The notes below the pieces were generated by a model that did no database searches, was not told the DNA's origin, and was given only the letters and a program-made list of their open reading frames with translations. Shown piece by piece: positions 8,937-25,951 of a DNA stretch of 64,000 bases; within the stretch, counting starts at the first letter, position 1; each line of letters starts with the position of its first letter. The stretch covers positions 2,387,001 through 2,451,000 of the forward strand of contig NZ_ATXB01000001.1 of the NCBI RefSeq assembly GCF_000421465.1, written 5' to 3'. The position numbers were made by a program, and so were the translations under genes. Source of the DNA: Methylohalobius crimeensis 10Ki. Lineage in GTDB: Bacteria > Pseudomonadota > Gammaproteobacteria > Methylococcales > Methylothermaceae.

Positions 8937-11786
8937 ATGGAAAAAACCTACGATCCGCACAAAATCGAACAGCACTGGTACAAAACCTGGGAGGAGAAAG
9001 GCTATTTCGCGCCTTCCGGGAAAGGACAACCCTATTGCATCATGATTCCGCCGCCGAATGTCACCGGCAGCTTGCACATGGGCCATGCCTTCCAGGATAC
9101 GATCATGGACGGTCTGATACGTTATCACCGGATGCGGGGCGACAACACCCTTTGGCAGCCGGGCACCGACCATGCCGGCATCGCCACCCAGATGGTGGTG
9201 GAAAGGCTCCTGGAAAAGGAAGACAAGACCCGTCACGACCTGGGCCGACAACGATTCATCGAGCGGATCTGGGAATGGAAAGCCCACTCGGGCGGCACCA
9301 TCACCCGCCAACTGCGCCGGATCGGCGCGTCGGTGGATTGGTCGCGGGAACGTTTCACCATGGACGAGGGCCTGTCGCGGGCGGTACGCGAAGTGTTCGT
9401 GCGGCTTTACGAGGAAGGCCTGATCTATCGCGGCAAGCGGCTGGTCAACTGGGACCCGGTCCTCCACACCGCCGTCTCCGACCTGGAAGTGGTCGCCGAG
9501 GAGGAAAAGGGCCATCTGTGGCACATGCGCTATCCCCTCGCCGACGGCTCCGGCCACCTGGTGGTCGCCACCACCCGTCCGGAAACCATGCTCGGCGACG
9601 TGGCGGTGGCGGTCCACCCCGACGACGAACGTTACCGAGATTTGATCGGCAAGACCGTCCGGCTGCCTTTGGCGGATCGGGAAATTCCCATCATCACCGA
9701 CGAATACGTGGATCCTGAATTCGGCACCGGTTGCGTGAAGATTACCCCGGCCCACGACTTCAACGACTATGATGTGGGCAAGCGTCACCAACTGATACAA
9801 GTCAATATAATGACCCCCGATGGGAAAATCTCAGAAAAAGCGGATATTTTCGTAACGTCTCCTTTGGGCCCTGAAGGCGAATATATCCAAGGGAAAAAAA
9901 TCCCTTCGCCTCAAGTTTCATCGGATTGCATACCCAAGGCCTACCGCGGCCTAAACCGCTTCGAGGCTCGCCAACGGATCGTCGAAGACCTGAAACAACA
10001 AGGTCTGCTGGAAAAGATCGAGGACCACGTGCTCAAGGTGCCGCGCGGCGACCGTTCCGGGGCGGTGGTCGAACCGTATCTGACCGACCAGTGGTTCGTG
10101 AAGACCAAACCCTTGGCGAAACCGGCCATGCGGGCGGTGGAGGAAGGCAAAATCCGCTTCATTCCCGGAAACTGGGCCAAGACTTACTTTCAGTGGCTGG
10201 AGAACATCGAGGACTGGTGCATCAGCCGCCAGATCTGGTGGGGACACCGGATTCCGGCCTGGTACGACGAGGAAGGCAGTCTCTACGTGGGCCATTCGGA
10301 AGCCGAAGTCCGCGCCAAATATGATTTGGGCGACCGGTCTTTGCGCCAAGACGAGGACGTGCTGGACACCTGGTTCTCCTCGGCGCTGTGGCCCTTCTCC
10401 ACTTTGGGCTGGCCCGACGAAACCCCGGAATTGGCGAGTTTCTATCCCACCAGCGTGCTGGTGACCGGTTTCGACATCATCTTCTTCTGGGTCGCGCGGA
10501 TGGTGATGATGGGCCTCAAGTTCATGGGTGACGTCCCCTTCCGCGACGTCTATATCCACGGTCTGATCCGCGACGCCCACGGCCAAAAGATGTCCAAATC
10601 CAAGGGCAATGTGCTCGACCCCATCGACTTGATCGACGGCATCACCCTGGAAGACCTGGTCGAAAAACGCACCGCCGGCTTGATGCAACCGCAAATGGCC
10701 AAGAAGATCGAACAGCAGACCCGGCAGGAATTTCCCGAAGGCATTCCCTCCTACGGGACCGACGCCTTGCGTTTCACTTTCGCCGCCCTGGCCACCACCG
10801 GCCGCGATATCCGTTTCGATTTGGGCCGAATCGAGGGTTACCGCAATTTTTGCAACAAACTTTGGAACGCCGCCCGCTATGTGTTCATGAACACCGACGG
10901 CCGGGAATTGATCGTCACGGACGACGTAGTGCTGGAATACACGCCGGTGGACCGTTGGATCCGCTCCCGCCTGCAACGGGTCATCCAAACCGCCGCCGAC
11001 GCACTCGAGGGGTATCGATTCGATCTGGCCGCCGCCGCCATCTATGAATTCTTGTGGGACGAATACTGCGATTGGTATCTGGAGCTATCCAAAGTGTCCC
11101 TCCAAACCGGCACCGAAGCCCAGCAGTGCGCCACTCGCCGCACCCTGATCGAAGTTCTGGAGGCATTCCTGCGCCTGGCCCATCCGATCACCCCCTTCAT
11201 CACCGAGGAGATCTGGCAGACAGCGGCGCCCATCGCCGACGTCGATGGGGATACGATCATGCAACAACCTTTCCCCGAACCGGACGCGGAGGCGCTGGAT
11301 GACGCCGCGGAAAGCGAAATCGCTTGGCTCCAAGCATTCATCCTGGGGCTGCGGCGAATCCGCGGCGAGATGAACATTCCGCCGGGCAAATCCCTGCCGG
11401 TCTTGCTGCAACAAGGCATGGACCTCGACCGACAGCGTGTGGAGGCTTACCGCGCCTATTTGGAGCGCTTCGGGCGAATCGAATCGATCGACTGGCTGGG
11501 CGCCGACCAAACCCCGCCGGAATCGGCCATCGCCCTGGTGGGAGAACTTAAAATCTTGATTCCCATGGCGGGGCTAATCGACAAGGAGGCCGAACTCCAG
11601 CGCCTGACCAAGGAGATCGATAAACTCAACAAGGAACTTCCCCGGGTGGAGGGCAAACTGAACAATCCCAAATTTCTCGAGCGCGCTCCGGATGAGGTGG
11701 TCGCCAAGGAACGTCAAAAGCTGGAGGAAATGCAGGCTTCTCTATCCCGACTGGAGGAACAGCGGACCCGGATTCAGGCGCTTTAA
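8937..11786 (+). CDS. valS: Valyl-tRNA synthetase
   Basis: ValS charges tRNA-Val in the cytoplasm. The 949-residue chain is a class I synthetase with the HIGH-type motif HMGH in [12 protein letters not shown] (about residues 40-51). The CP1 editing domain follows (about 200-400, with [10 protein letters not shown]). The KMSKS loop is [10 protein letters not shown] near 550. The last 75 residues are a Lys/Glu-rich coiled coil ([12 protein letters not shown]), as expected for ValS. The start ATG at 8937 places the conserved [11 protein letters not shown] at residue 5. A strong terminator follows the stop, so this is probably a single-gene transcript. Confidence 0.98.
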
Positions 11787-12066: not shown

Positions 12067-14088
12067 ATGAGCAATAGCCTCCTGAACCGACGTCAATTTC
12101 TCTTCAAGGCCGGCCTTGCCTGCACCGCCTTCCTTCATGCCTGCGGCTTGAAGCCATCGAAACCGACCGCTCCGGATTTTTCCTGTCGTCCGGGAAGAAC
12201 TGCCGCAGCCTCTCATGAGTACGATTACATCGTGGTGGGCTCCGGGGCAGGTGGCGGACCTCTGGCAGCCAACCTCGCCCGTCTCGGTCATCGGGTATTG
12301 CTCTTGGAAGCCGGTGGCGACGTGGACAATCCCCACTACCAAGTCCCCCTCTTCCACCCTCAGGCCACCGAGGATTCGGACATGCGTTGGGATTTTTTCG
12401 TCCGCCACTATGGAAACGAAACCCTCTCGCGGCGAGATCCCAAGTTCTACCAGGAACACGACGGCGTATTCTATCCCCGCAGCGGCACTCTGGGCGGATG
12501 TACCGCCCATAATGCATTGATCTTCATCGCCCCTCACGCCAGCGACTGGGATCGGATCGCCGAACTGACCGGCGACCCGTCCTGGCACAGTAGCGCCATG
12601 CGTCCATACTTCCGGCGTTTGGAACGCTGCGCTTATGTCACCCCCATATCCGGAAACCCCTCCGGACACGGCTTTCGCGGCTGGCTGCCGGTCGACCTGC
12701 CCGGCCGCGAGGTCATCCACCAAATTCTTTTCAGCGCGATCAAAGATAAGCAGTTGCGCGACGGAATCTTCAAGCCCGCCCTGCAGGCCATTCGACCCGA
12801 CCTGGATTCCCCGCTGGATTATCTCAAAGCCTTGCTTGCGGACCTGAAGAATCCAGAAACCGTCGATCCCAACGATCAACGCTACCGCCACACCCGTCCC
12901 ACGGAACTGAATCTGATGCCGCTGACCACCGTCGACGGCCGCCGTGCGGGGCCTCGGGAATACGTCCTGGCAGTGGCGCGGGCTTGTCCCGGGCATTTGA
13001 CCATCCAGACCCACAGCCTGGTCAGCCGGGTATTGTTCGATCGCAACCAGCGCGCCACCGGCGTCGAGGTGTGGCGGGGAAAAAAACTCTATCGCGCCGA
13101 CCGGAGTGCCGATTTTCGACGCGAACCGGATGAGATCGTTCAAATTGCTGCCCGCCGGGAGGTGATTCTCGCCGGAGGCGCCTTCAACACCCCTCAACTG
13201 CTCATGCTTTCGGGTGTCGGACCCGAAGCGGAACTGTCCCGCCATGGAATCCCGCTGCGGGCGGATTTGCCGGGGGTGGGACGCAACCTGCAGGATCGCT
13301 ACGAAATATCGGTAGTGACGGAAATGCGGGAAAACTTCGCCCTTCTCAAGGAAGCGGCCTTCACTCCGAACGACCTCCTCTATCGCAAATGGCAGAAGGG
13401 CGAAGGATTGTATACCACCAATGGCGCGCTGATCAGCTTTGCGCGGCGCTCGCAGCCGGAGTTGGCCGATCCGGATCTGTTCGTATTCGGCATGCCGGGA
13501 ATGTTCCGGGGATATTACCTCGGCTATTCCCGCGACGCCACCGCGCGCAAGGATTTGTTCAGTTGGGTCATTCTGAAGGCCCACACCCGTAACGACGCAG
13601 GCGGCGTCCGCCTCCGATCTCCGGACCCTCGCGATCCTCCCCAGGTCAATTTTCGCTTTTTCGAGGAAGGCAGCGATGCCGGCGGCGAAGATCTGGCCGC
13701 GGTCATCGAAGGCTTGCGTTTCGTGCGCACCATTACCGACGCAGGCCGAAAGCATATCCGGCGCGAACTAATGCCGGGGGAAACGGTACGAACACGCCCA
13801 CAAATCGAAGCGTTTCTCAAAGCCAATGCCTGGGGCCATCATGCATCGTGCAGCTGCCGAATGGGTCCGGTGGACGATCCGCTGGCGGTCGTGGACAGCC
13901 GCTTCCGGGTACGTGGGGTGAAAGCGCTGCGCATCGTGGATGCCTCGGTCTTCCCGCGCATTCCCGGATTTTTCATCGTCAGCGCCGTTTACATGATCGC
14001 GGAAAAGGCGACCGACACGATTCACGCCGACGCCCTGGCGGCACGCGGGCCGCCCCCTCAACTTTCCATCAGTGGAGAAACATCATGA
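12067..14088 (+). CDS. GMC-family FAD oxidoreductase, exported
   Basis: This 673-residue flavoprotein resembles choline dehydrogenase-type GMC enzymes, which oxidise alcohols and pass electrons to an acceptor. The FAD-binding fold begins at YDYIVVGSGAGGGPLAANLA (about 53-72). The GMC signature is SGTLGGCTAHNALI (about 139). The catalytic His region near residue 590 reads WGHHASCSCRMG. The N-terminus NRRQFLFKAGLACTAFLHAC has a twin-arginine pair followed by a hydrophobic stretch and a Cys. This fits Tat export, possibly as a lipoprotein. It opens an operon, and the next gene overlaps its stop (ATGA). The adjoining cytochromes make periplasmic electron transfer to c-haem plausible. Confidence 0.87.
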   Translation: MSNSLLNRRQFLFKAGLACTAFLHACGLKPSKPTAPDFSCRPGRTAAASHEYDYIVVGSGAGGGPLAANLARLGHRVLLLEAGGDVDNPHYQVPLFHPQATEDSDMRWDFFVRHYGNETLSRRDPKFYQEHDGVFYPRSGTLGGCTAHNALIFIAPHASDWDRIAELTGDPSWHSSAMRPYFRRLERCAYVTPISGNPSGHGFRGWLPVDLPGREVIHQILFSAIKDKQLRDGIFKPALQAIRPDLDSPLDYLKALLADLKNPETVDPNDQRYRHTRPTELNLMPLTTVDGRRAGPREYVLAVARACPGHLTIQTHSLVSRVLFDRNQRATGVEVWRGKKLYRADRSADFRREPDEIVQIAARREVILAGGAFNTPQLLMLSGVGPEAELSRHGIPLRADLPGVGRNLQDRYEISVVTEMRENFALLKEAAFTPNDLLYRKWQKGEGLYTTNGALISFARRSQPELADPDLFVFGMPGMFRGYYLGYSRDATARKDLFSWVILKAHTRNDAGGVRLRSPDPRDPPQVNFRFFEEGSDAGGEDLAAVIEGLRFVRTITDAGRKHIRRELMPGETVRTRPQIEAFLKANAWGHHASCSCRMGPVDDPLAVVDSRFRVRGVKALRIVDASVFPRIPGFFIVSAVYMIAEKATDTIHADALAARGPPPQLSISGETS

Positions 14089-16598
14089 ACAAACTGCGCC
14101 GTTGGCTTCTTACGCTCTTCCTCCTGCTTTTTCTCGGCGGCTGCGCCACAGTGGTGGACGAAGCCGAACAAGTCGACCGCGACGAGCAGTCTTTCCCGGG
14201 CGCCGACGAGGATTATTTCCATGACATGGACTACGGCATCACCAAGGATCCGCAAGCGGTCGCCGCCGCCCTGGCACCCTACCTTCCCGGAATCGCTCCG
14301 GCCGATGCGGTCGCGGCGGTGGTTCGCGGACGCAACAACTGGATCGTCTGGACCGGCGGCAACGACCGCCTGTGGGACGAGCTGAACCGCGCCAGCGTGG
14401 GCAACTTCGATCTGCTCAAGGTGGTCTCCAACCACCCCAGTCTCAAATTCAGCCGCGACAACCGTTGGTCTTATCTGGGTCTGGTGAACGAGCCTTGCTT
14501 CCATAAGGGTCCGGAGCCTCGCCAGGACCGGTTCGGGCTGTGGCTGGACGTGCGCGACTCGGACTGCCCGCCCGACCCCTTCGAAAACGCCCAAAAATAT
14601 CCCGGCGTGGCAATCGGCGCCCGCGGTAAAACCGTCCCGGTGGGTTCCTATTACGGCTATGCCACCGGCATCGTCGGCCTGCGCCTGTTTCCCAATCCGA
14701 ATTTCGACGAACAAGCGGCCGAGGAATGGGACCCGGAGCGCTACTACACCGACCCCAGTTACTACAACCGCAAAGATCTGGTCCGCCCCTATCGGGTCGG
14801 AATGTCGTGCGGATTCTGCCACGTGGGACCGAGCCCGGTGAATCCCCCCCGGGACTTCGAAAATCCCAAGTGGGAAAACCTCACCTCCAACCCCGGCGCC
14901 CAGTATTTCTGGTGGGATCGGATCGCTATCTGGCAGGCGGACCCTTCGGAGTTCACCTACCAGCTGTTCTACACTTCCCGTCCCGGCGCCTTGGATACGT
15001 CGTTCGTCTCCACCGACTACATCAACAATCCCCGCACCATGAACGCGGTCTACGACCTGGGGCCCCGGCTGGCGGTGGCGCTCAGGCTGGGCAAAGAAAA
15101 GCTCACCGACGGGGAACTGGACAACAAGCGCTTCAGCGATTATCCCTCGATTCCCGAAAACAGTCCGCTGCACCGCTTCTTTGAGGCACCGGATACGGTT
15201 TGGACGCCGATGGTGCTCAAGGACGGCGCCGATTCGGTGGGCGCCTTGGGCGCTTTGAACCGAGTCTACGTCAACATCGGCTTGTTCAGCGAAGAGTGGT
15301 TGCGCCACTTCAGGCCCTTTATCGGCGGCAAGCCCATCACTCCCTTCAAAATCGCCACAGCCGAGGAAAACTCGGCCTATTGGCGCGCCACCGAGATGCA
15401 AACGCCCGACGTGGCGCTGTTTTTCCTCGTCACCGCCCGCCCGGATTACCTCAAGGACGCTCCCGGCGGCAGCCGATATCTCCAGGACGATCCGGCGACG
15501 GTGAAGCGCGGCAAGGTCGTTTTCGCCGAAAACTGCGGCCGCTGCCACTCCAGCAAGCTGCCGGAAAAAACCTTCAGTTTCTTTCCCGACGACGGCTGCA
15601 ACGGCCCCAATTATCTGCAATGTTGGAACAACTATTGGAACTGGACCCGAACCGAGGAATTCAACAAGCAGATGCGAACCATCGTACTCAAGGAAGATTT
15701 TCTCGAAGACAATTACCTCTCCAGCGAACTGCGCATTCCGGTGACCTTGCTGGAAAGCAACGCCTGCAGCACTCTGGCCACCAACGCGATCCGGGACAAC
15801 ATCTGGCACGACTTCTCCTCCTCCTCGTACAAGTCCCTGCCTGCGGTGGGCGAAGTCATAGTCCACCACCCCACCACCGGTCGGCCTTATGCATTCCCCA
15901 TGCCGGCCGGTGGTCTGGGGTATCTTCGAGTACCTTCCCTGATCAGCCTTTGGTCCACCGCTCCTTACCTGCTGAACAATACGGTAGGGGAATTTTGCTG
16001 GAAGAAACCGGAAGGCCAAAACTACGCCCGCTCTCATAACTACGCGAACGATGCGGGCGACGAATACGTCTGCACCGGAACCACCGAAGATCGGATGAAA
16101 GCGTTCTATGACGGTATCGAAAAAATGCTGTGGCCGGAGAAACGCCAGGGCGATCGACAATACCTGACCCGCTCGGGCAAGCACCTGCCCGGCGTCATCG
16201 ACCGCACCACCGCCACCAGTTATCTGAGGGTGCCGCCTGGGTTCGTGCCCGAGTTCCTACGCGTCTTGCCCGACTTCCGGGACGGCATCGACCTGGGTCC
16301 CATCCCGCAAGGCACGCCGGTCAATCTAATCGCCAACTTGGACTTGGAGAACAAATCCGGAGTCATCCACCTGTTGCCAAAATTGGTCAAGGCGCTCAAG
16401 GCGTTGCCCAAAGATGCGGGCGACGAAGAAGCGCGCCAAGTATTTTCCCCGTTGGTGGATGAGATGCTGGCGTTCAACAAATGCCCCGATTTCGTGGTCA
16501 ACCGGGGCCATTACTTCGGCACCGATTATCTTCCCGGGGAAACCGGATTGAGCGATGCCGACAAACAGGCGCTGATCGCATTTCTGAAGCGCTTATGA
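14085..16598 (+). CDS. Dihaem c-type cytochrome lipoprotein, RoxA/OdsA-like (837 aa)
   Basis: The protein starts with a lipoprotein signal (LLLFLGGC, Cys20) and carries two c-haem sites, CGFCH at 242-246 and CGRCH at 484-488. Near the C-terminus it has WSTAPYLLNNTVG, close to the APYLHNGSVP motif of the two smaller dihaem proteins downstream. The distance between haem sites (about 240 residues) and that motif recall the RoxA rubber oxygenase and OdsA/OdsB fatty-acid dioxygenase/diol synthase family, but the protein is much longer. It could be an oxygenase or an electron-transfer partner of the GMC enzyme. Start ATG 14085 overlaps the previous stop. The family call is tentative; haem binding is well supported. 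Confidence 0.75.
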   Translation: MNKLRRWLLTLFLLLFLGGCATVVDEAEQVDRDEQSFPGADEDYFHDMDYGITKDPQAVAAALAPYLPGIAPADAVAAVVRGRNNWIVWTGGNDRLWDELNRASVGNFDLLKVVSNHPSLKFSRDNRWSYLGLVNEPCFHKGPEPRQDRFGLWLDVRDSDCPPDPFENAQKYPGVAIGARGKTVPVGSYYGYATGIVGLRLFPNPNFDEQAAEEWDPERYYTDPSYYNRKDLVRPYRVGMSCGFCHVGPSPVNPPRDFENPKWENLTSNPGAQYFWWDRIAIWQADPSEFTYQLFYTSRPGALDTSFVSTDYINNPRTMNAVYDLGPRLAVALRLGKEKLTDGELDNKRFSDYPSIPENSPLHRFFEAPDTVWTPMVLKDGADSVGALGALNRVYVNIGLFSEEWLRHFRPFIGGKPITPFKIATAEENSAYWRATEMQTPDVALFFLVTARPDYLKDAPGGSRYLQDDPATVKRGKVVFAENCGRCHSSKLPEKTFSFFPDDGCNGPNYLQCWNNYWNWTRTEEFNKQMRTIVLKEDFLEDNYLSSELRIPVTLLESNACSTLATNAIRDNIWHDFSSSSYKSLPAVGEVIVHHPTTGRPYAFPMPAGGLGYLRVPSLISLWSTAPYLLNNTVGEFCWKKPEGQNYARSHNYANDAGDEYVCTGTTEDRMKAFYDGIEKMLWPEKRQGDRQYLTRSGKHLPGVIDRTTATSYLRVPPGFVPEFLRVLPDFRDGIDLGPIPQGTPVNLIANLDLENKSGVIHLLPKLVKALKALPKDAGDEEARQVFSPLVDEMLAFNKCPDFVVNRGHYFGTDYLPGETGLSDADKQALIAFLKRL

Positions 16599-16611: not shown

Positions 16612-17928
16612 ATGAAACGAATACCCACCATGGGATGGCTACCGGCTCTGGCCTTGCTGACCGGCTGTTCCCTGTACTCCCATACCAACGTTCAGGGAAC
16701 CACCGGGGAGCCTGCCGCAAGCAAAGCGAGCTTCCATATCGGCGAACCCCGCGGCCGATCGGAAAAAACTTTGATGATTTTGGCCTTGTCCGGAGGCGGC
16801 AGCCGCGCCGCTTATTGGTCGAGCGATGTGATGCTGGCCTTGGAAAAAGTGTTCGAGACCGAAGGCTGGAACCTCCTCCACGAAGTGGATGCCATCTCCT
16901 CGGTATCGGGCGGTTCGCTTCCGGCCGCTTACTACGCCATCAGCGCCGATAGCCCAACCGAAGCCGGGCGCTTGTCGTCGGGACGGGTCTGGGATCGCGC
17001 CACGGTGCGGGAACTGATGCGCAAGAATTACCGAGGCAAATGGATCGGTAACTGGTTCTGGCCCGTCAACGTCGCCCGCTATTGGTTCACCGCCTACGAT
17101 CGATCCGACATCATGGCCCAGACCCTGGCCGACAATCTCTATGATCAGTCGTTCATCGGCTGGGATTTGCGCTACCGGGATCTCAATCCGGAGCGGCCCA
17201 ACCTGATCATCAACGCCACCAACGGCACCGCCGATCACTTCGGTCTGCCTTTCACATTCACCTATGAACAGTTTCAAGCCATGGATTCCGATCTGGCCGA
17301 TTACGATATCGCTCGGGCGGTGATGGCTTCGGCCGCCTTCCCCGGGGCGTTCAACTACATGACCCTGAAAGACTACGGAAACGACCGCCATTATTTTCAT
17401 GTATTCGACGGGGGCAATTACGACAATTTGGGACTTTTCAGCGCCATGCAGGTATTGGCCAGCAACGCTCAACGATTCGACCGGGCGGTGGTGATTCTGA
17501 TCGATTCCTACACCCCCGGCGGAGGAATCGATCACCATGCGTACGACGGCCGCGGGACCCTGGATTTCGGCGTGGACCTGAATTTCCTGGATAGCTTCGA
17601 CACCCTGCTGTCGGTCAATCGGGCTCGGATTCTGGAAATTTTCTCCGCCTACCTGGATCGTACTTTCGGCGATCGCAGTGTGTTCTACCACTTGCGCTTC
17701 GACGAAGTGGGCGACGAGGGGCTGCGCCAGCAACTGCAAACCATCAAAACCGATTTCAAGATCGCGGCGGAAAACGCCGATGCCATCGATATTGCCACCG
17801 CCCAACTGATCGTGCCCGAAAACGCCTGTCTCCGGCAAATCATGCGTCTGATGGAAGATCAAGACAATCCCGATCACGCCACCATTTGCCGGTGGCGTTC
17901 CCCGCCTACCACCAGAGGTTCCCCATGA
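16612..17928 (+). CDS. Patatin-like phospholipase lipoprotein
   Basis: This 438-residue protein is a patatin-family serine acyl hydrolase. The oxyanion loop is LSGGGSRAA (about 59-67). The nucleophile Ser99 lies in SSVSGGS. The catalytic Asp266 is in FDGGNYDNLGL. The signal ends in a lipobox (ALLTGC, Cys19), so it should be membrane-anchored and extracytoplasmic. Patatins cleave acyl chains from phospholipids. The gene sits between two redox genes of one operon, and the next ATG overlaps its stop (ATGA). This suggests the released fatty acid is the substrate of the neighbouring oxidases, which is an inference. Confidence 0.87.
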   Translation: MKRIPTMGWLPALALLTGCSLYSHTNVQGTTGEPAASKASFHIGEPRGRSEKTLMILALSGGGSRAAYWSSDVMLALEKVFETEGWNLLHEVDAISSVSGGSLPAAYYAISADSPTEAGRLSSGRVWDRATVRELMRKNYRGKWIGNWFWPVNVARYWFTAYDRSDIMAQTLADNLYDQSFIGWDLRYRDLNPERPNLIINATNGTADHFGLPFTFTYEQFQAMDSDLADYDIARAVMASAAFPGAFNYMTLKDYGNDRHYFHVFDGGNYDNLGLFSAMQVLASNAQRFDRAVVILIDSYTPGGGIDHHAYDGRGTLDFGVDLNFLDSFDTLLSVNRARILEIFSAYLDRTFGDRSVFYHLRFDEVGDEGLRQQLQTIKTDFKIAAENADAIDIATAQLIVPENACLRQIMRLMEDQDNPDHATICRWRSPPTTRGSP

Positions 17929-19262
17929 ACAACGACAACACCGACCGCATTTTTCAACCGCTTCTGTTCCGCCATCTCACGGTCAAAAACCGCCTGTTCC
18001 GCTCCAGCATTTCCGGGCGCTGGGACAACTACGACGGCTCCGGCACCCACGCCCGCCTCAACTGGGAAGAAAAATTCGCCCGCGGCGGCGTGGGCGCGAT
18101 CATCACTTCCTTCGTCCCGGTTCACGTGCGCGGACGCATCCTGCCCAATTACGCCATGATCGACCACGACGACAAAATCCCGTTCTGGCGCGAGGCGGTG
18201 AAGCGGGTCCATACCCATGATTGCAAACTCATCATGCAGCTCAGCCATTCCGGCCGCCAGCGCGACGTGCCGGGAATCGAAAATCAGATGAACGTGGGCC
18301 TGTCGTCCACCGACAAGATGGACACCTTCCACGGCCTGCTCTGTCGAGCGATGACTCAAAAAGAGATCGCCGACGTCACCGGCTATTTCGTCGCCGGCGC
18401 TCGCCGCGCACGGGAAGCGGGACTAGATGGCATCGAGCTACACGCCTCCCACGGCTACCTGTTCACCCAGTTTCTGAGTTCGGGCATCAACGACCGCAAG
18501 GACGAATACGGCGGTTCCCTGGAGAACCGGGCCCGTTTCTTGATCGAGACCGTACGCGCCATCCGCAAGGAAGTGGGCGACGATTACCACCTCCAGGTGA
18601 AAATCAACGCGTTCGACGAAAACAACGCCCTTTACCCCTGGGAGAAAAAAGGGAACTCGGTGGAAGAATCCATTCAGCTCTGCCAGTGGCTGGAAAAAGA
18701 AAACGTCGATTGCCTTCACATCTCCGCCGGCAGTCTGTTCCCCCATCCCTTGGTTCCCCCAGGCGGCTTTCCCCTGGACGTGGCCAAGTGGACCTACGGA
18801 GCGATGATCTCCAGCGGGGTGCGGGGCTATTTCAATTACACCTTCTTCCACTATCGCTGCCTGCGTCCCTTGTTCGCCTGGCTCTGGAACCGAACCAAGA
18901 AACGTTATCCCATCGAGGGAGTCAGCTCCGAGGCCTGCGGCCTAATCAAGGCCAAGGTCAATGTGCCTGTCCTGAATACCGGGGGCTATCAGAACGGCGT
19001 CCTGATTCGCAAGGTGATCGAAGCTGGAATCTGCGACGGCGTGGCCATCGCCCGTCCCCTCATCGCCAACCCGGACCTTCCCCATATCCTGGCCGAAGGC
19101 AGGGACGAACCGGACAAACCTTGCTCTTTCTGCAACCGATGCCTGCTCAACGCCCCGGCCAATCCCCTCGGCTGCTATGACCTGCGTCGCTTCGACGGCG
19201 ATTACGACGCCATGATCGCCGACATCATGAGCGTATTCCATCCCCCCGCCTTTCCCGAATGA
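17925..19262 (+). CDS. NADH:flavin oxidoreductase (Old Yellow Enzyme-like) with Fe-S motif
   Basis: This 445-residue protein is a TIM-barrel FMN oxidoreductase. VKNRLFRSSISG opens the barrel. GIELHASHGYLFTQFLS and DEYGGSLENRARF are conserved substrate and FMN segments. Near the C-terminus CSFCNRCLLNAPANPLGC gives C-X2-C-X2-C-X10-C. This resembles the 4Fe-4S motif of 2,4-dienoyl-CoA reductases, though one residue shorter at two spacings. The second FAD/NADH domain of those enzymes is absent. No signal peptide is visible, so it is probably cytoplasmic, unlike most of its operon. Reduction of an activated C=C bond is the likely chemistry. I chose ATG 17925 because it overlaps the previous stop. 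Confidence 0.85.
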   Translation: MNNDNTDRIFQPLLFRHLTVKNRLFRSSISGRWDNYDGSGTHARLNWEEKFARGGVGAIITSFVPVHVRGRILPNYAMIDHDDKIPFWREAVKRVHTHDCKLIMQLSHSGRQRDVPGIENQMNVGLSSTDKMDTFHGLLCRAMTQKEIADVTGYFVAGARRAREAGLDGIELHASHGYLFTQFLSSGINDRKDEYGGSLENRARFLIETVRAIRKEVGDDYHLQVKINAFDENNALYPWEKKGNSVEESIQLCQWLEKENVDCLHISAGSLFPHPLVPPGGFPLDVAKWTYGAMISSGVRGYFNYTFFHYRCLRPLFAWLWNRTKKRYPIEGVSSEACGLIKAKVNVPVLNTGGYQNGVLIRKVIEAGICDGVAIARPLIANPDLPHILAEGRDEPDKPCSFCNRCLLNAPANPLGCYDLRRFDGDYDAMIADIMSVFHPPAFPE

Positions 19263-19466: not shown

Positions 19467-20969
19467 ATGAACGTTTTCAAATCCTGGTGGGATAAATGCA
19501 AACGGCATCCGGTACTCCTGATTATTGTGCTCGTGGTGGCGGTGTTTGCCGTTGCCTTAATCTATCGCTACAAGGTGGAACGACCGGTGGATTACTCAAA
19601 GATCGAAGAACATTTCAAATACGGCTCCATCGGAAGCGAACCCATGAGCGGGCTGCCCTATTGGATCTGGAAGGTCCTTCCGGTGATGTTCCCGGAAAAA
19701 ATACCCGGCGGCGGCGATTACCGCGCTTTCGGCTTTCTTTACGAGGAAGACCGGGATCTTCCCATCGGGGTATCCAAGCGGCGGGTGCAAGGTATCGACT
19801 TCGTCTGGCTCAATTGCGCCGTCTGCCACACCGGCACCGTACGCGAATCGCCGGATGCCCCCAGGAAGACCTATTTGGGCATGCCGGCCAACAACTTTAA
19901 GCTTTACGCCTTCGTGCAGTTTCTGCGCGATGCGGCTCTGGACAACCGTTTCAATACCGACAACGTCCTGGCCCGGATTGATTCCCTGGACGGCGATCTG
20001 GATTTGACCGAAACCATCGCTTATCGCTTTTTCGTCGTCGATCGGGTGAGGGGCTCCCTGATCGATCTTCGGCGTCAACTCGCCTTTCTGGATCAACAGC
20101 ATCCGTGGGGACCGGGGCGGGTGGATACCTTCAACCCCTACAAGGCCATTCAGTTCAATTTCCCCATGGATCGGGTACCTCGAGAGGAACTGATCGGACC
20201 GGCCGATTACCCCTCCATCTGGCATCAACGTCCGCGTCAGGGAATGCAATTGCACTGGGACGGCAATAATCCCTCGGTGGAAGAACGCAACAAAAGCGCC
20301 GCCTTGGGGGCCGGGGTAACTCCCGTGACCATCGACCTGGCGCGAATCGAGCGCATCGAGGACTGGCTCTGGGAACTCATGCCGCCGCCCTACCCCAAAC
20401 CCATCGACCGGACCAAAGCCGCCCAGGGGAAGATGCTGTATGAAAGATACTGCGCCGATTGTCACGGTCTAAAGGAAAAGGATACCTACGTGTTCGATAC
20501 GAAGCGCTTCAAACGCTTGGGCAAGGTGGAACCGCTGGCCGATATCGGTACCGATCCGGGCAGATTGAACTCCTATACCGAAGCCCTCGCCGCCGTTCAG
20601 AATACCCTCTACGCGGGCTATCCCTGGCGCTTCAAACATTTCCGCAAGACCAACGGTTACGCCAATATGCCGCTGGATGGCCTTTGGCTTCGGGCACCTT
20701 ACCTGCACAACGGCTCCGTACCCACTTTGCGCGACCTGTTGGAACCGGCATCCCGGCGTCCCCCGGTTTTCTACCGTGGCTACGACGTCTATGACTGGGA
20801 CAAGGTGGGATTCGTATCCAGGGTAGCGAAGGAAAACGGCCAGGCATTTTTCCGTTTCGATACCGGACAGGAAGGCAACTCCAACAGCGGCCACGAAGGC
20901 GAAGAATACGGCACCTATCTGGATCCCGCCGCCAAGGACGCCCTGGTTGAATACATGAAAACCTTTTGA
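19467..20969 (+). CDS. Membrane-anchored dihaem cytochrome, RoxA/OdsA-like (500 aa)
   Basis: An N-terminal transmembrane anchor (VLLIIVLVVAVFAVALIY) precedes a periplasmic domain with haem sites CAVCH (117-121) and CADCH (329-333), 212 residues apart. Other marks are FKYGSIGSE (50-58), WGPGRVDTFNP (214-224), LHWDGNN (262-268) and, near residue 405, LRAPYLHNGSVPTLRDLL. This architecture fits the dihaem family of latex oxygenase RoxA and the Pseudomonas oleate 10S-dioxygenase and diol synthase. A fatty-acid or other lipid oxygenase is therefore the leading idea; a simple electron carrier is the alternative. It shares its whole plan with the product of 21410-22867, so the two are probably ancient duplicates or a two-step pair. 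Confidence 0.8.
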   Translation: MNVFKSWWDKCKRHPVLLIIVLVVAVFAVALIYRYKVERPVDYSKIEEHFKYGSIGSEPMSGLPYWIWKVLPVMFPEKIPGGGDYRAFGFLYEEDRDLPIGVSKRRVQGIDFVWLNCAVCHTGTVRESPDAPRKTYLGMPANNFKLYAFVQFLRDAALDNRFNTDNVLARIDSLDGDLDLTETIAYRFFVVDRVRGSLIDLRRQLAFLDQQHPWGPGRVDTFNPYKAIQFNFPMDRVPREELIGPADYPSIWHQRPRQGMQLHWDGNNPSVEERNKSAALGAGVTPVTIDLARIERIEDWLWELMPPPYPKPIDRTKAAQGKMLYERYCADCHGLKEKDTYVFDTKRFKRLGKVEPLADIGTDPGRLNSYTEALAAVQNTLYAGYPWRFKHFRKTNGYANMPLDGLWLRAPYLHNGSVPTLRDLLEPASRRPPVFYRGYDVYDWDKVGFVSRVAKENGQAFFRFDTGQEGNSNSGHEGEEYGTYLDPAAKDALVEYMKTF

Positions 20970-20979
20970 GGAACCCGCC

Positions 20980-21399
20980 ATGACAACCTCCTATGAAATC
21001 TGGCATACCCGTCTGGTCCAAATCGGAATCGCCATCAATCTGCTGTTTGTCGTCGGTTTATGCTTCTTTCCACGGCAACTTCTGGATTTTCTGAGCATCC
21101 CGCTGGAGCATCTGATCTGGGCACGTGCTTCGGGAATGCTGCTGTTTATCATCAGCGTGTTTTATATCCCGCCTACTTGGGATCTGAAACGCTACCGAGC
21201 GGTGGCTTGGTTTGCGATTTTTCCCTCCCGTACCTTCGGGGCCACTTTCTTCACTATCGCAGTGTTCGTTTTCGGACACCCCAAGGGGTTTCTATCGATT
21301 GCCATCGTCGACGCTCTTATCGGACTGAGCACCTGTTACTGCCTCTGGCACGTCACTCAGGCCGAAGCCGCCTCCGGAAGTCCCGTGCCTTTGAAATAG
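20980..21399 (+). CDS. Four-helix membrane protein, unknown
   Basis: This 139-residue protein has about four hydrophobic helices (IGIAINLLFVVGLCFF, ASGMLLFIISVFYIP, FGATFFTIAVFVFG, GFLSIAIVDALIGLS) and a short polar tail. I see no catalytic motif. It lies ten bases after one dihaem cytochrome gene and ten bases before the next, so it is surely cotranscribed with both. A membrane partner, haem-delivery helper or quinone-linked subunit for the cytochromes is conceivable. No family could be assigned with confidence. Confidence 0.75.
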   Translation: MTTSYEIWHTRLVQIGIAINLLFVVGLCFFPRQLLDFLSIPLEHLIWARASGMLLFIISVFYIPPTWDLKRYRAVAWFAIFPSRTFGATFFTIAVFVFGHPKGFLSIAIVDALIGLSTCYCLWHVTQAEAASGSPVPLK

Positions 21400-21409
21400 G
21401 AGAAACACC

Positions 21410-22867
21410 ATGACCACACGTGGTAAAAAATTGACATGGCTGGCCGTCTTGTTGTTTTTAGCTGTGAGCGTCGGCATCACCGTCTGGGTTCAGTTGTTTC
21501 GGGAAGGATCCCAGGAACATCTTGCCGACGCCACGGCGGAAGAGTGGTTCAAGTACGGCTCCATCGGCAGTGAATCCAGTCAAGGCGTACCCTATTGGAT
21601 CTGGCTGGTGTTACCGAAAGTTTTTCCCGATTATATACCCGGTCCGGGTGGCTATACGTCATTCGGTTTCGTATGGGAACAAGGCCGGGAATTGCCGGTG
21701 GGGTTTTCCAAGAAAACCATCGGCTTCGAGCGCGTGGCTTTCAATTGCGCATTTTGTCACATTACCCGCTACCGCTTGCAACCCGATCAGCTACCGCATC
21801 ATGTGGCGGCGGGACCGGGCCATACTATTCGCGCTCAGGACTACGCCCGATTCCTGGCCCGGGCCGGCAACGACGACCGTTTCAACCCGGATACGCTGAT
21901 GCCGGAGATCGATCGCATCTACGACATGTCGTGGATCCAAACACTGTTCTATCGCTACTTCATCATTCCCGCCACCAAAAAAGCACTCGTCAAAAACGGC
22001 TGGCAACTGGCCTGGACCATTACTAAACCCGAATGGGGCCCGGGCCGCATCGATCCCTTCAACCCGATCAAGTTCGGCATCCTGCAGATGGGTATCGACA
22101 ACACGATCGGAAGTGCCGATATGGTCCCCATTTGGGACATGGCGGCGCGATCCGGTTTCGATCTGCATTGGGACGGTCTTAACACGGATTATCACGAAGT
22201 GGTTGTAAGTTCCGCTATCGGCGACGGAATGACCTATCAATCCATTCCGGAGGAAAATCTGGCCCGGATCGAGCAGTGGCTTCAAGAATTCCCTGCCCCC
22301 AAATCTCCCTTCAATACTGAGCAACCCCAAGGATCGCCATACCGCCTCGACCCCGACAAATTAGCGGCAGGCGAGAGCTTATTCATTGCGCATTGCGGAG
22401 AATGTCATTCCCGGCAGGGCAAGCATACCGGCAAAGTAATTCCGGTTAAAGAATTAGGCACCGATCGTCATCGGGTGGATATGTGGACCCAAGAAGCAGC
22501 CAATCGCTATAACGCCTACCAAAAGGAATACGACTGGGGAATGGAGCATTTTCGTAACGTAGACGGATACGTAGCCGTACTTTTAGATGGACTATGGTTG
22601 CGAGGCCCCTATTTGCATAATGGTTCTGTACCCACTGTCAGAGATTTGCTGAATGGGCCGGATCAGCGGCCTCAAGTTTTTTACCGCGGCCATGATCTAA
22701 TCGACCCGGTCAATCTGGGTTTCATCTCCCACGGCAGGGAAGCTCGACAAGCCGGTTTTCGTTTCGATACCCGAATCCCGGGTAATGGCAACCAGGGACA
22801 CACTTATGGCATCAATCTTTCGGCGATGGAAAAAGACGCCTTGCTGGAATTTCTCAAAACCTTATGA
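21410..22867 (+). CDS. Membrane-anchored dihaem cytochrome, RoxA/OdsA-like (485 aa)
   Basis: The protein has an N-terminal membrane anchor (LAVLLFLAVSVGITVWV) and haem sites CAFCH (113-117) and CGECH (329-333). The landmarks of the upstream 500-residue paralogue recur in order: FKYGSIGSE, PYWIWLVLP, WGPGRIDPFNP, LHWDGLN and LRGPYLHNGSVPTVRDLL. The second half of the gene looks less GC-rich than the first. It is the last gene of the operon and is followed by a strong hairpin terminator. By analogy with Pseudomonas OdsA/OdsB, two related dihaem enzymes in tandem could do consecutive steps on one acyl chain. That is an inference from architecture; I could not check distal-haem residues. Confidence 0.8.
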   Translation: MTTRGKKLTWLAVLLFLAVSVGITVWVQLFREGSQEHLADATAEEWFKYGSIGSESSQGVPYWIWLVLPKVFPDYIPGPGGYTSFGFVWEQGRELPVGFSKKTIGFERVAFNCAFCHITRYRLQPDQLPHHVAAGPGHTIRAQDYARFLARAGNDDRFNPDTLMPEIDRIYDMSWIQTLFYRYFIIPATKKALVKNGWQLAWTITKPEWGPGRIDPFNPIKFGILQMGIDNTIGSADMVPIWDMAARSGFDLHWDGLNTDYHEVVVSSAIGDGMTYQSIPEENLARIEQWLQEFPAPKSPFNTEQPQGSPYRLDPDKLAAGESLFIAHCGECHSRQGKHTGKVIPVKELGTDRHRVDMWTQEAANRYNAYQKEYDWGMEHFRNVDGYVAVLLDGLWLRGPYLHNGSVPTVRDLLNGPDQRPQVFYRGHDLIDPVNLGFISHGREARQAGFRFDTRIPGNGNQGHTYGINLSAMEKDALLEFLKTL

Positions 22868-22964: not shown

Positions 22965-24206
22965 TTACATGAAGGTCGGGATCAGCGGTGCGTCGATGGT
23001 CACGATTTGACGGTTGCCGGCATCGTCGTAGAACATCAGCATGCCACCCATCCGGCTATCCGGATCGTAGATGATGTCTGACAGACGATACACTTCCCAG
23101 GCCGCGTCAGAGGCGGTGACGTTGATGGTCTTGGTTTCACCCGGACCGATCGCTCCGCCGTCGACGTTGAGGCCTTCTTCCGCCAGCAGGTCTTCCGGAT
23201 AGCCGCTGTCGTCTTCACACACTGCCGGGTTCATGAAGCGAACCGAGGCGGTGTTGAATTCGCACAGCTGAAGCGGACGATCGCTGTTGTTGGTCACGGT
23301 CAGAACCATCCGCATGGCGCGACCCGGCACGCGATAGGTGGCTTCGTCCACGCTCACCGACACTTGCGGTGCCGGCATTTCCAGCGCCTTGATACCCCGC
23401 ATGGTGCCCGCTTGCAGCGGAATGGTCACCGGGTATTTGCTTTGCGCGCTGCTGTAGCCGAAGATCACCAGCAGGATGGTGGCCGCACCGAACAGCATGC
23501 CGACCTTTTTGTCCAGCGGGGTGACCAGTTCGTCACCACGGCCCGCATTGACCATCAACAGGCGCGGAATGAAGACCGGGTTGCGCACGAAGTACAGGAT
23601 CCAGGCAACGCCCAAGGCATACCACAGAACGTGCCAGAACCAAACGTTGCCTTCGTTGTAGCCTTCCAGGTCCACGGTTTGCCCGGTCAGGGTGGTCACC
23701 GGGTTTTTGAAGTTGCTCATGGAGCCGTTGATGGTGACCCATTTACCCGGGCCGATGATCGGACCGCCGCCTTCGACGTTGACCATGGGGTGAACGTGCC
23801 ATTCCCCGGGACGACGTGCTTTCAGCACCACGCGGAAGCTGTAGGTGTCACCCAGGTGCAGTTCCACCGAACGCGGCACGAATTGGTCGCCGATGTAGGA
23901 TTCTTTACGAATCAACACCGGGCCCGGAATGCCGATGTTCAGGAAGGAGACGGACGGGGGATCCACCGAGTCCGGCCAGCCTTCGAAGATGTGGATCTTG
24001 CCCGAGATTTCCATCTCTTCGTTGATGTTGAGCATGTCCGTGGACCAGTTCAGGTCGAAGAAGTGAATGGTCCGCATCCGCAGGAAGGCTGCCTGGGATT
24101 TTTCACCGTGGGCCGAGGCCGTCGGGGTGTACATCATCGCCGCCGCCAGGGTCATCAACAGACCAACCAGCGACCAGCGCGCGATCCTGTCTCTTATCGT
24201 TTTCAT
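22965..24206 (-). CDS. pmoB: Particulate methane monooxygenase subunit B
   Basis: PmoB is the large subunit, with two periplasmic cupredoxin domains, of the membrane copper enzyme that oxidises methane to methanol. The 413-residue chain begins with a signal peptide ending TASA, so His33 becomes the mature N-terminus (HGEK). His137 and His139 lie in EWHVHPM; these three are the known CuB ligands, and the numbering equals that of Methylococcus capsulatus. Two transmembrane helices separate the cupredoxin domains (FWHVLWYALGVAWILYFV and LFGAATILLVIFGY). GAGGAGG precedes ATG 24206, so the ATG at 24221 is rejected. It is third in the pmoCAB operon, 52 bases after pmoA. Confidence 0.98.
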   Translation of the reverse strand: MKTIRDRIARWSLVGLLMTLAAAMMYTPTASAHGEKSQAAFLRMRTIHFFDLNWSTDMLNINEEMEISGKIHIFEGWPDSVDPPSVSFLNIGIPGPVLIRKESYIGDQFVPRSVELHLGDTYSFRVVLKARRPGEWHVHPMVNVEGGGPIIGPGKWVTINGSMSNFKNPVTTLTGQTVDLEGYNEGNVWFWHVLWYALGVAWILYFVRNPVFIPRLLMVNAGRGDELVTPLDKKVGMLFGAATILLVIFGYSSAQSKYPVTIPLQAGTMRGIKALEMPAPQVSVSVDEATYRVPGRAMRMVLTVTNNSDRPLQLCEFNTASVRFMNPAVCEDDSGYPEDLLAEEGLNVDGGAIGPGETKTINVTASDAAWEVYRLSDIIYDPDSRMGGMLMFYDDAGNRQIVTIDAPLIPTFM

Positions 24207-24258
24207 CGATTTCCTCCTCAATTGTTGTCTCGTGTGTCGTTCGTCAAACTATTCTTCA

Positions 24259-25002
24259 TCAGGTCTTCTTGACGAATTTCACAGTGCCGAACCAACGGCC
24301 CACAAAGTGCCACATGAAGTAGATCAGGATGGACATGAAGCCGGAGAAGAACGCGGATACCGGCGCCACGTCTTTACCGAAGGTACGCAGGGTGCCTTTT
24401 TCAACCATCCGGATGTATTCGGGCGTACCCGTACGGACGTAATGGTAGCCTTGGATGTCGGCCACGGACATCAGCATGCCGTTGTATTCCACAGGCACGT
24501 GCAGCGGTGCGATCACCGGCCAGTTGCCCGGGTACATCAACAGACCCCAGCCCAAGCCGCCAACCACGGCCGTGAACAGGAAGCTGCTGGACAGCATCAG
24601 GACCACGTCCAGGAAGATGGCCATGTGGACCGCCGCCGTCGGGAAGACGAAGTTGATCGGGAAGTAGGTCCATCCCCAGAAGTTGAAGTAGCGGTTGATC
24701 CATTCACCCAGCAGAATGCCCAGAATGGAAATGGTGGCCCCGAAAGGCAGGCGCAGACGTTCCCAAATCACCGCTTGCACCGCGGCCGGGAAGGTGATCA
24801 TGACGATCGGGTAGACGGTCACCCACAGACGACGGTCTTTCCAGTCGGACCAGAAGTCCCAGTCGCCCATGGTCAGCATGCCGTGAATGTGGTAGGAACC
24901 GGTCAATACGAAGAACAGGATAAACAGGCCCAGGTAGTCAACCGTCCTGGACACCTGCACTGCTTCGGCGTGTGACCGAACTGCAGACGTTGTAGTGCTC
25001 AT
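24259..25002 (-). CDS. pmoA: Particulate methane monooxygenase subunit A
   Basis: PmoA is an integral membrane subunit and the standard marker gene for methanotrophs. The 247 residues equal the length in Methylococcus capsulatus. Diagnostic blocks are present: GDWDFWSDWKDRRLWVT, LLGEWINRYFNFWGWTYF, and WPVIAPLHVPVEYNGMLMS. Several helices follow the hydrophobic pattern of PmoA rather than AmoA, and the NFWGWTY and HVPVEYNG segments favour methane over ammonia oxidation. GGAGG lies six bases before the ATG. N-terminal helix residues (YLGLFILFFVLTG) differ clearly from my memory of M. capsulatus PmoA, so a different genus is likely. Confidence 0.98.
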   Translation of the reverse strand: MSTTTSAVRSHAEAVQVSRTVDYLGLFILFFVLTGSYHIHGMLTMGDWDFWSDWKDRRLWVTVYPIVMITFPAAVQAVIWERLRLPFGATISILGILLGEWINRYFNFWGWTYFPINFVFPTAAVHMAIFLDVVLMLSSSFLFTAVVGGLGWGLLMYPGNWPVIAPLHVPVEYNGMLMSVADIQGYHYVRTGTPEYIRMVEKGTLRTFGKDVAPVSAFFSGFMSILIYFMWHFVGRWFGTVKFVKKT

Positions 25003-25070
25003 TACTTACCTCCAAGTCTCTTGTTGTTGCTCGTTCATTAATTGAACTCACGCCTTGTGGTTTCGCCTCC

Positions 25071-25089
25071 CTGGCAGGAGAGCCGCCAG
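25071..25089 (-). other. Short hairpin in the pmoC-pmoA gap
   Basis: The 142-bp gap between pmoC and pmoA contains no gene. It holds the small inverted repeat CTGGC/GCCAG with a GC-rich 9-base loop, followed by a T-poor stretch. It could slow mRNA decay or tune the subunit ratio, but the stem is only five base pairs. Confidence 0.3.
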
Positions 25090-25144
25090 CACCCCAGCGG
25101 CCCCCCAGGTCGCGCTTCCTATGGATTCTAACCTCGGCAGGCGA

Positions 25145-25951
25145 TTAGTCCGCCCAGGTGGCAGCGTCGCCGCTGCTGTATACGTCCGAACCGCACAGGT
25201 CGCTTCCAATCAGGTTGGCGAAGCTGGCGAACACTTGCAGCAGCAAGCCCAGAATCGACAGCGCCATCCAACCGAAGAACACGAAGCCATAGTGCAGCGG
25301 CGCCACGAACAGCTCTTCCATGAACCAGAAGGTGTGACCCCATTCGTTCAGACCCACGTTGGGAAGAATCATGAACGGTCCCACCACGGTGATCATATAA
25401 GCCACCGAAAAACCCTTCTTCTGGTAGTTGAAGTAGGGCAGACGGGTGTGCGCATAGATCATCGCCGCAAACCCGGTGATGATGTAGATCGGGTAGCTCA
25501 GGTAGAATTCGATGATGTGGCTCGGGGTGAAGTCGGTGTCCCGAACGATGGTTTGGTGCCAGGTGCCGTCCTGCTCGGTGAAGTAGCTCGCACCCCAGTA
25601 AATGGCCCAGGCATAAGCCACCAGCCAGATCAGGTGGGTGAAGTTGCGACGCAGTTCTTCACGCGGCGCCAAGGCGTCCAGGTTGCGGTCCCGGCTCTTC
25701 CACAGGTAGCCCCACAGCACCGAGGCCGTCACCACTTCCAGTACGATTTCGGTGTACAGGAAGTTCATCCAGTATTTTTCGAATTCCGGAGCGAACGAGT
25801 CCAGACCGGCCGACCAGCCATAAACCCCTTCGTACCAACGTACCCACGCGTAGAAAACCGTGTAAATGCCCAGCGCGAACGCCAGCCATTTCTTGTCCAG
25901 AAGCGGGGCATCTTGCGCTGCCGCGCCTACTGCTTGTGTCGTTGCAGCCAT
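25145..25951 (-). CDS. pmoC: Particulate methane monooxygenase subunit C
   Basis: PmoC is a membrane subunit now thought to hold the catalytic copper sites. The 268-residue chain keeps the CuC ligands Asp128, His132 and His145 (spacing D-X3-H-X12-H, as in D156/H160/H173 of M. capsulatus). It also keeps the CuD ligands Asn202, His206 and His220 (N-X3-H-X13-H in LNEWGHTFWF...APLHYGF). About six transmembrane helices are apparent. AAGGAGGT precedes the ATG by seven bases. It is the first gene of pmoCAB, behind a strong sigma70-type promoter. The N-terminus is slightly shorter than that of M. capsulatus. Confidence 0.98.
   Translation of the reverse strand: MAATTQAVGAAAQDAPLLDKKWLAFALGIYTVFYAWVRWYEGVYGWSAGLDSFAPEFEKYWMNFLYTEIVLEVVTASVLWGYLWKSRDRNLDALAPREELRRNFTHLIWLVAYAWAIYWGASYFTEQDGTWHQTIVRDTDFTPSHIIEFYLSYPIYIITGFAAMIYAHTRLPYFNYQKKGFSVAYMITVVGPFMILPNVGLNEWGHTFWFMEELFVAPLHYGFVFFGWMALSILGLLLQVFASFANLIGSDLCGSDVYSSGDAATWAD

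Follow-up and report, generated by a model that had tools for sequence, protein, structure and literature searches.

A histidine-less branch of dihaem proteins in the bCCP/MauG/RoxA superfamily, usually paired with GMC oxidoreductases

The stretch of DNA which we have analysed, called here the window, comprises 64,000 nucleotides of Methylohalobius crimeensis 10Ki. It contains the gene of an exported dihaem lipoprotein (Table 1), which is a member of the bCCP/MauG/RoxA superfamily by its profile match, its fold and a maximum likelihood (ML) tree. Within this superfamily the protein belongs to a branch of its own, which lacks the signature histidine and is usually paired with a GMC oxidoreductase; the branch, the pairing and the loss of the histidine are well supported by sequence, tree and gene order. 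The branch is large and widespread, it is not rare: relatives of the gene are encoded in 377 genome stretches. As for its function, we infer with a confidence a little short of even that the protein is the exported part, on the periplasmic side, of an oxidative lipid (oxylipin-like) module. Relatives in the superfamily activate O2 or peroxide by haem. To our knowledge, outside the bCCPs a reaction is known for few of its dihaem members: MauG, RoxA/RoxB and PA2077/PA2078. The branch is large, it is without a residue common to its sisters and it has a partner gene at hand, so that its chemistry is directly testable.

Table 1. Location of the features discussed in the text (positions in the window, except for the last row)
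Feature	Position	Strand	Basis or remarks
GMC oxidoreductase, 673 aa, twin-arginine leader and lipobox (Cys26)	12067..14088	+	PF05199 E 3.2e-28, PF00732 E 2.6e-19; leader read from sequence
ATGA overlap, GMC stop / dihaem start (translational coupling)	14085..14088	+	four bases shared
Exported dihaem lipoprotein gene, 837 aa	14085..16598	+	ATG 14085, stop 16598; homologues found
Signal peptide with lipobox LGGC (Cys20) of the dihaem protein	14085..14144	+	read from sequence
Haem 1 motif CGFCH, residues 242-246	14808..14822	+	Cys/Cys/His in 63/63 rows
Block VLKDGADSVGALGALNRVYVNIGLFSEEWLRHFRP, residues 377-411	15213..15317	+	strongly conserved, 63 rows; alignments of both sides
Haem 2 motif CGRCH, residues 484-488	15534..15548	+	Cys/Cys/His in 63/63 rows
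MauG/RoxA signature APYLLNN, Leu630 (15972-15974) replacing histidine	15960..15980	+	80 loci
GH, residues 808-809	16506..16511	+	63/63 rows; paralogue alignment; RoxA aligned with paralogues
Patatin-like lipase with lipobox leader	16612..17928	+	PF01734 E 1.5e-17; leader read from sequence
FMN ene-reductase (old yellow enzyme family, OYE)	17925..19262	+	PF00724 E 2.4e-57; ATGA overlap with patatin gene
rox1, 500-aa His-bearing RoxA-side dihaem paralogue	19467..20969	+	NF040606 199 bits, cut-off 150; tree
Small 139-aa hydrophobic protein, conserved in cassette	20980..21399	+	comparison of loci
rox2, 485-aa His-bearing RoxA-side dihaem paralogue	21410..22867	+	NF040606 160 bits, cut-off 150; tree
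402-aa catalase-fold family (A5), representative	L070:8540-9748		low-confidence model

A first-pass annotation, made from the letters of the window, had proposed a lipoprotein of this length with two haem motifs, and both points stand: the leader contains the lipobox LFLGGC and there are exactly two CxxCH motifs. A chance or wrong-strand reading frame is ruled out by the orthologues and by the matches in plasmids and genome stretches. A frame-shifted or fused gene was also set aside, since relatives at 80–81% identity are full-length frames of 839 and 845 amino acids. Orthologues at 81% identity are found in two genomes of the same genus; among the best 80 of the 377 stretches the nearest named relative is a Methylothermaceae MAG (L017, 80% identity). 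By a rough rule, 77 of 78 relatives have a leader and 40 have a lipobox.

The same annotation had stressed the length of the protein. Its N-terminal excess is found (haem 1 is preceded by 241 residues, in rox1 and rox2 by 116 and 112, from motif positions), but the distance between the haem motifs, given as far more than in the paralogues, is 237 residues against 207 and 211, an excess of only 26–30. An extension of 349 residues after haem 2 had been overlooked; the paralogues have 167 and 152. Most of the surplus sequence is therefore N- and C-terminal. Length is not diagnostic by itself, because the NCBIfam model of RoxC already has 812 positions. A long rubber oxygenase of the RoxC type was set aside: the NCBIfam models of RoxA, RoxB and RoxC give no row for the dihaem protein at E 1. 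A PSD1/PSCyt domain in the extensions, which the annotation had named as a finding that would speak against its proposal, was set aside as well, with no such Pfam row in the dihaem protein and one PSD4 row (E 0.11) in one of the 30 members scanned.

These 30 members are 29 of the 77 stop-free open reading frames of relatives and the window protein itself, which lies under every Pfam and NCBIfam cut-off. Its best curated match is NF040606 (24.6 bits, E 1.3e-5, cut-off 150); PF00034 gives 20.0 bits (cut-off 21.3) and PF13442 20.2 bits (cut-off 27). NF040606 matches all 30 with E values of 0.01 or lower; PF03150 (CCP_MauG) gives no row at E 1 in any of them. A family profile of 806 positions was built from 63 rows, 62 of the 77 frames and the window protein. 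It matches a profile of ten other dihaem sequences (99.5%, E 6e-23) over residues 237–634, a span which includes both haem sites and the signature. The ten sequences are rox1, rox2 and their relatives together with a 540-aa protein (L006), found in the tree on the side of the dihaem protein. In a search of PDB sequences, with the protein and with the profile, the matches were small cytochromes c and products of chance, and no E value was below 0.02.

The AlphaFold model of the protein is good (pLDDT 85.8, pTM 0.88), and the predicted fold is related to MauG and RoxA. Foldseek by itself is weak and finds RoxA alone (E 0.015, prob 0.54, TM 0.27/0.32). VIA-align, run on the 30 chains ranked highest by Foldseek, gives MauG with Z 7.9 over 268 residues, RoxA with Z 7.3 over 403 and the MauG-like 6e1c with Z 7.3; the next row has only Z 3.1. 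The Z scores of this model are middling, yet all three top rows belong to one superfamily and are clear of the rest. On the N-terminal haem of RoxA a pair of Phe residues keeps the O2 in place (PMC6797691); the region of the dihaem protein in which a counterpart of this hydrophobic distal pocket (F301/F317) would be expected aligns only without confidence.

The haem sites are strictly conserved. All 77 stop-free frames have exactly two CxxCH, a trait of the superfamily (two haem sites in one chain), and CxxCH, GH809, W405 and C138/C161 are fixed in 63 of 63 rows. Four other cysteines are nearly fixed in the same rows: C561 and C800 (61 rows each), C505 and C513 (59 each). The pair GH 808–809 matches the GH found near the C-terminus of RoxA. 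As had been noted, the segment WSTAPYLLNNTVG, residues 623–635, aligns with APYLHNGSVP of the paralogues, and YGSIG and LHWDG are both absent; the place of the LHWDG-type block of RoxA/Ods-side proteins is occupied by VLKDGADSVGALGALNRVYVNIGLFSEEWLRHFRP. What had been missed is the signature histidine: APYLHN of the paralogues has become APYLLN. The signature P-x-x-H-N-(G/N) is not present as such, with Leu630 at the position of the histidine, which is retained in sister proteins. At the 80 nearest loci (best 80 of 377) this residue is leucine in 69, glutamine in 8, valine in 3 and histidine in none; 78 loci were counted and L061 and L071 were added from the listing. The members on rhizobial plasmids L011, L013 and L016 also lack the histidine. 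A Mesorhizobium (L014) and a Rhizobium (L015) protein retain it, and both fall outside the histidine-less clade.

The ML tree, with 59 chosen rows and 485 columns, has two sides separated by a 100/100 split. One side, of 23 rows, is marked by P(Y/F)LHNG and comprises rox1, rox2, an Ods-like tandem pair, a RoxA-like protein and proteins of the NF040606 type. The other side (100/100) numbers 36 rows and is marked by an NN signature; the histidine is present in 16 of them and absent in 20, and these 20 form a single nested clade, again with 100/100. Most simply, and as a reading of the tree rather than a formal count, the histidine would have been lost once. The idea of a new branch of the family is supported by a related fold, the profile match with the paralogues and a separate 100/100 clade. 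The phylogeny suggested in the first-pass annotation, done here with RoxA-like and Ods-like rows, places the protein on its own branch but off the RoxA/Ods side. RoxA is represented by one protein (L151), which sits on a long branch flagged as unsure by the tree program and scores 284 bits with NF050033 on one stretch and 181 on another; no genome had a match over the RoxA cut-off in the sets searched (0/398, 0/3, 0/90 and 0/298). The tandem pair L150, on the side opposite to the dihaem protein, is called Ods-like by spacing alone, as its haem and histidine spacings agree within one residue. The program also flags a long branch for L101 and an odd composition for L119 and L121. The own genome has a further dihaem gene (L099/L101, contig C2 near 721,000), an open frame of 640 amino acids with PFLHNG, which groups with L119 and L151 and with no member of the cassette described below.

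The best 80 of the 377 stretches were fetched for comparison; they are not a random sample, close kin are included and counts on them are not independent. Their titles name Pseudomonadota, Acidobacteriota, Nitrospirota, Myxococcota and Cyanobacteriota, and many are MAGs. Among kin genomes 6 of 61 match, the own genome included; G045 owes its match solely to a distant relative of 540 amino acids. In a sample across phyla 5 of 398 genomes have a match at 1e-30; in G102 and G138 it is a histidine-bearing protein. Plasmid records match in 21 cases out of 72,556, 18 at 46–48% identity and 3 at 34–35%. The cassette is carried by large rhizobial plasmids (L011, L012, L013 and L016), of which pRL11 is typed as conjugative, a possible route of transfer.

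The GMC gene had been described as directly coupled to the dihaem gene. This is seen in the window as an ATGA overlap, and a GMC gene adjoins the dihaem gene or lies within about 1.5 kb of it at 70 of the 80 loci (tblastn, E 1e-20). At 67 loci it is the next gene downstream, on the same strand and within about 320 bases; at three it is upstream and divergent. At L077 and L095 the divergent GMC gene is about 1.5 kb off, with a catalase-fold gene between. Six of the ten loci without GMC break off no more than about 210 bases from the dihaem gene (L018, L024, L040, L055, L061 and L071), and L055 shows a GMC fragment; the stretch of L017 is without the upstream side, where the genus carries GMC. 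The gene is truly absent at three of the 80 loci, with long flanks searched (L022, L092 and L096). Since the own genome has three GMC_oxred_C places in 3.5 Mb, such adjacency is not expected by chance. GMC genes also stand beside histidine-bearing sisters (L014, L015, L153 and L157). Next to six members of the same side that are more remote (L154–L156 and L158–L160; upstream of L160 less than 0.8 kb was available) none was found, so that the pairing seems to be older than the loss of the histidine. The GMC partner in Mesorhizobium (L014:10915-15603) is annotated with about 1562 amino acids, against 673 in the window, and may be a fusion. Among the matches listed in a search of open-licence PMC papers we found no work on the dihaem–GMC pair.

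By a rough rule, no Tat-like leader is seen in 54 of the 70 GMC partners, and 16 look Tat-exported, as does the GMC protein of the window; the 16 are 10 by rule and 6 by eye, in rows without a located FAD motif (L038, L039, L041, L042, L043 and L091). Since the dihaem proteins have a leader in 77 of 78 cases, the two partners are often seemingly in different compartments. A direct contact between them is possible in the window species, though not across the branch as a rule; it is safer to assume that they share a pathway. This bears on a rival explanation, in which the histidine-less protein would be the electron-accepting cytochrome of a GMC dehydrogenase: the two haems would take up electrons from the FAD and pass them to the respiratory chain, and the ancestral oxygenase chemistry would have been lost with the histidine. 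We regard such a relay as unlikely, though a serious possibility. It is consistent with the GMC pairing at 70 of 80 loci, with the invariance of both CxxCH and the C-terminal GH in 63 rows while the histidine is gone, and with the ATGA overlap in the window, where both proteins are predicted lipoproteins; however, the 54 partners without a visible Tat-like leader would have no contact with an exported cytochrome unless they are co-exported, the profile, with 806 positions of which many are invariant, is much for a mere relay, and the GMC pairing is present in the histidine-bearing sisters too.

The dihaem gene is part of a cassette of seven genes (Table 1). The patatin gene starts 13 bases past it, rox1 lies 204 bases beyond the ene-reductase gene, and rox1, the gene of the small protein and rox2 are 10 bases apart. 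The GMC, dihaem and patatin proteins all have predicted lipobox leaders, as judged by eye. Another species of the genus (L163) has the whole cassette as well. On the rhizobial plasmids L011, L012, L013 and L016 the order is OYE-rox1-small-rox2-dihaem-GMC; after GMC there is a patatin gene in pRL11, none annotated in L012, an 806-aa hypothetical gene in L013, and L016 is unannotated. Much of the cassette is also found in a cyanobacterial MAG (L058) and in a Myxococcaceae assembly (L054). Convergent to it, on the minus strand at 22965–25951, there are genes which we take from their translations to be pmoB, pmoA and pmoC-like, which makes a methane oxidiser the probable host. Upstream of the GMC gene, at 8937–11786, there is presumably a valyl-tRNA synthetase-like gene, also recognised from its translation.

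Other neighbours recur at the 80 loci. Patatin-like proteins are found at at least 24 loci, the catalase-fold family at at least 15, a 434-aa family at at least 14, DUF4331 at at least 13, a DyP-like peroxidase at at least 12, a 156-aa family at at least 10, an alpha/beta hydrolase at at least 5 and OYE at at least 4. These are lower bounds, because the picker of open reading frames drops genes that lie under longer false frames; it finds 60 GMC genes against 70 by tblastn. Two of the assignments rest on representatives below the cut-off: the DyP-like peroxidase has 59.4 bits with TIGR01413 (E 3.5e-16, cut-off 100.5) and the commonest patatin group has 25.3 bits (cut-off 27.7). A second, histidine-bearing dihaem gene is present at 11 of the 80 loci. 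Sisters of this kind, open frames of 730–819 amino acids, lie near the histidine-less gene in L077 and L087 (plus strand, from about 12.4 kb), in L062 (minus, from 8707) and in L065 (minus, from 18608); they are possible enzyme pairs.

The catalase-fold family, of 402 amino acids, is often found in one run with the DyP-like peroxidase and the 434-aa and 156-aa families. None of the 10 members scanned has a Pfam match, and there is no NCBIfam match in what was scanned. In a profile search of the PDB the top two rows are the coral allene oxide synthase-lipoxygenase (E 0.063 and 0.27), non-significant alone. The model is poor (pLDDT 53.9), yet in Foldseek as in VIA all 50 rows shown are catalase-fold proteins. 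Foldseek ranks coral allene oxide synthase first (E 5.9e-8); in VIA this enzyme has Z 12.2, level with other catalases, the top row having 13.1. The catalase fold also carries out chemistry unrelated to lipids; chanoclavine synthase is second in Foldseek. In all 10 rows the distal histidine of catalase is presumably replaced by Asn, from an alignment by eye with catalase. The family is found in 38 of 374 genomes (1e-10), against 5 of 398 for the dihaem gene, so it is a frequent but non-exclusive neighbour. In the Pseudomonas genome of L037, a dihaem gene of the NF040606 type is followed by a stretch of the catalase-fold family in two pieces, with 35 and 30% identity (L152, G805).

The loss of the histidine, while the haem sites are otherwise fixed, points to an altered chemistry, which could be either an electron relay from the GMC enzyme or the conversion of an oxidised lipid in the manner of PA2078. 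PA2077 requires both haems and PA2078 converts the hydroperoxide apparently without them (PMC4496055). The patatin, DyP-like and catalase-fold neighbours argue for lipids; against such a reading, each of the three is found at less than one third of the loci, and OYE at 4 of 80, all as lower bounds. Its chief difficulty is the apparent difference in location between most GMC partners and the dihaem protein. In the oxidative lipid module which we tentatively prefer, the exported, membrane-anchored dihaem protein would work on the periplasmic side. The patatin would release acyl chains; rox1 and rox2, or elsewhere other histidine-bearing relatives or peroxidases, would oxygenate them or handle lipid peroxides. 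The histidine-less protein and the GMC enzyme would carry out two linked oxidations of one intermediate. The GMC enzyme would oxidise an alcohol to a carbonyl, and the enone so formed would be reduced by the ene-reductase. In the window species the predicted lipoprotein leaders of the dihaem, GMC and patatin proteins would also allow a direct electron transfer. The substrate, the reaction of the histidine-less protein and the order of the steps are those that we infer. If the lipid reading is true, an unrecognised way to oxidised lipids is common to methane oxidisers, ammonia oxidisers, rhizobia and others. A bolder version of it, rather doubtful at present, is that bacteria of several phyla have an octadecanoid-like pathway independent of lipoxygenase, made up of patatin, dihaem oxygenases, the histidine-less protein with GMC, and either an ene-reductase (compare the OPR step of plants) or a catalase-fold enzyme similar to allene oxide synthase. 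The histidine-less protein would then convert hydroperoxides or oxylipins without the ancestral haem chemistry.

It is improbable that the protein is a haem oxygenase of the RoxA/OdsA type, adding O2 to an isoprenoid or a fatty acid with a dispensable histidine. Its superfamily fold, profile match, export leader and patatin neighbours would fit such an enzyme, but the histidine is missing at 80 of 80 loci, its clade is apart from the RoxA/Ods side behind a long separating branch, the LHWDG-type block is replaced and no NCBIfam row of RoxA, RoxB or RoxC is found. A MauG-like maturation enzyme, oxidising residues of a partner (perhaps GMC) for a cofactor or cross-link, has very little chance of being right: MauG is the top structural row, though two rows at Z 7.3 tie with its 7.9, and the pairing with GMC is frequent, but the signature histidine of MauG is missing, the compartments apparently do not match, and the partner is a flavoenzyme, a GMC type for which we know of no need of a MauG-type installed cofactor.

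Among known systems, MauG and the bCCPs (PF03150) have a two-haem fold core in common with the dihaem protein, which has lost their histidine. A sequence network of PF03150 proteins is presented in PMC6405878; as none of the 30 members has a PF03150 row, a network of this kind would, by inference, not contain the branch. The di-heme-cytochrome C peroxidase model NF040606 is passed by rox1 and rox2, and the dihaem protein has 24.6 bits of the 150 required. OdsA/OdsB (PA2077/PA2078), the oleate diol synthase or FadCcp, are likewise dihaem CCP-like and extracytoplasmic. In PMC4496055 they appear as relatives in the superfamily which act on fatty acids and as a pair with differing roles; they carry PYFHNGSVP, with the histidine (its Table 1), against APYLLNNTVG in the dihaem protein. 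From the rubber oxygenase RoxA (PDB 4b2n, NF050033) the protein differs by the absence of the signature histidine and of an LHWDG-type block, by its N- and C-terminal extensions, its GMC partner and a clade apart from the RoxA-like protein, with no row in the RoxA, RoxB or RoxC models. It shares with RoxA two c-type haems, export, the C-terminal GH and a distant similarity of fold (Z 7.3, 403 residues).
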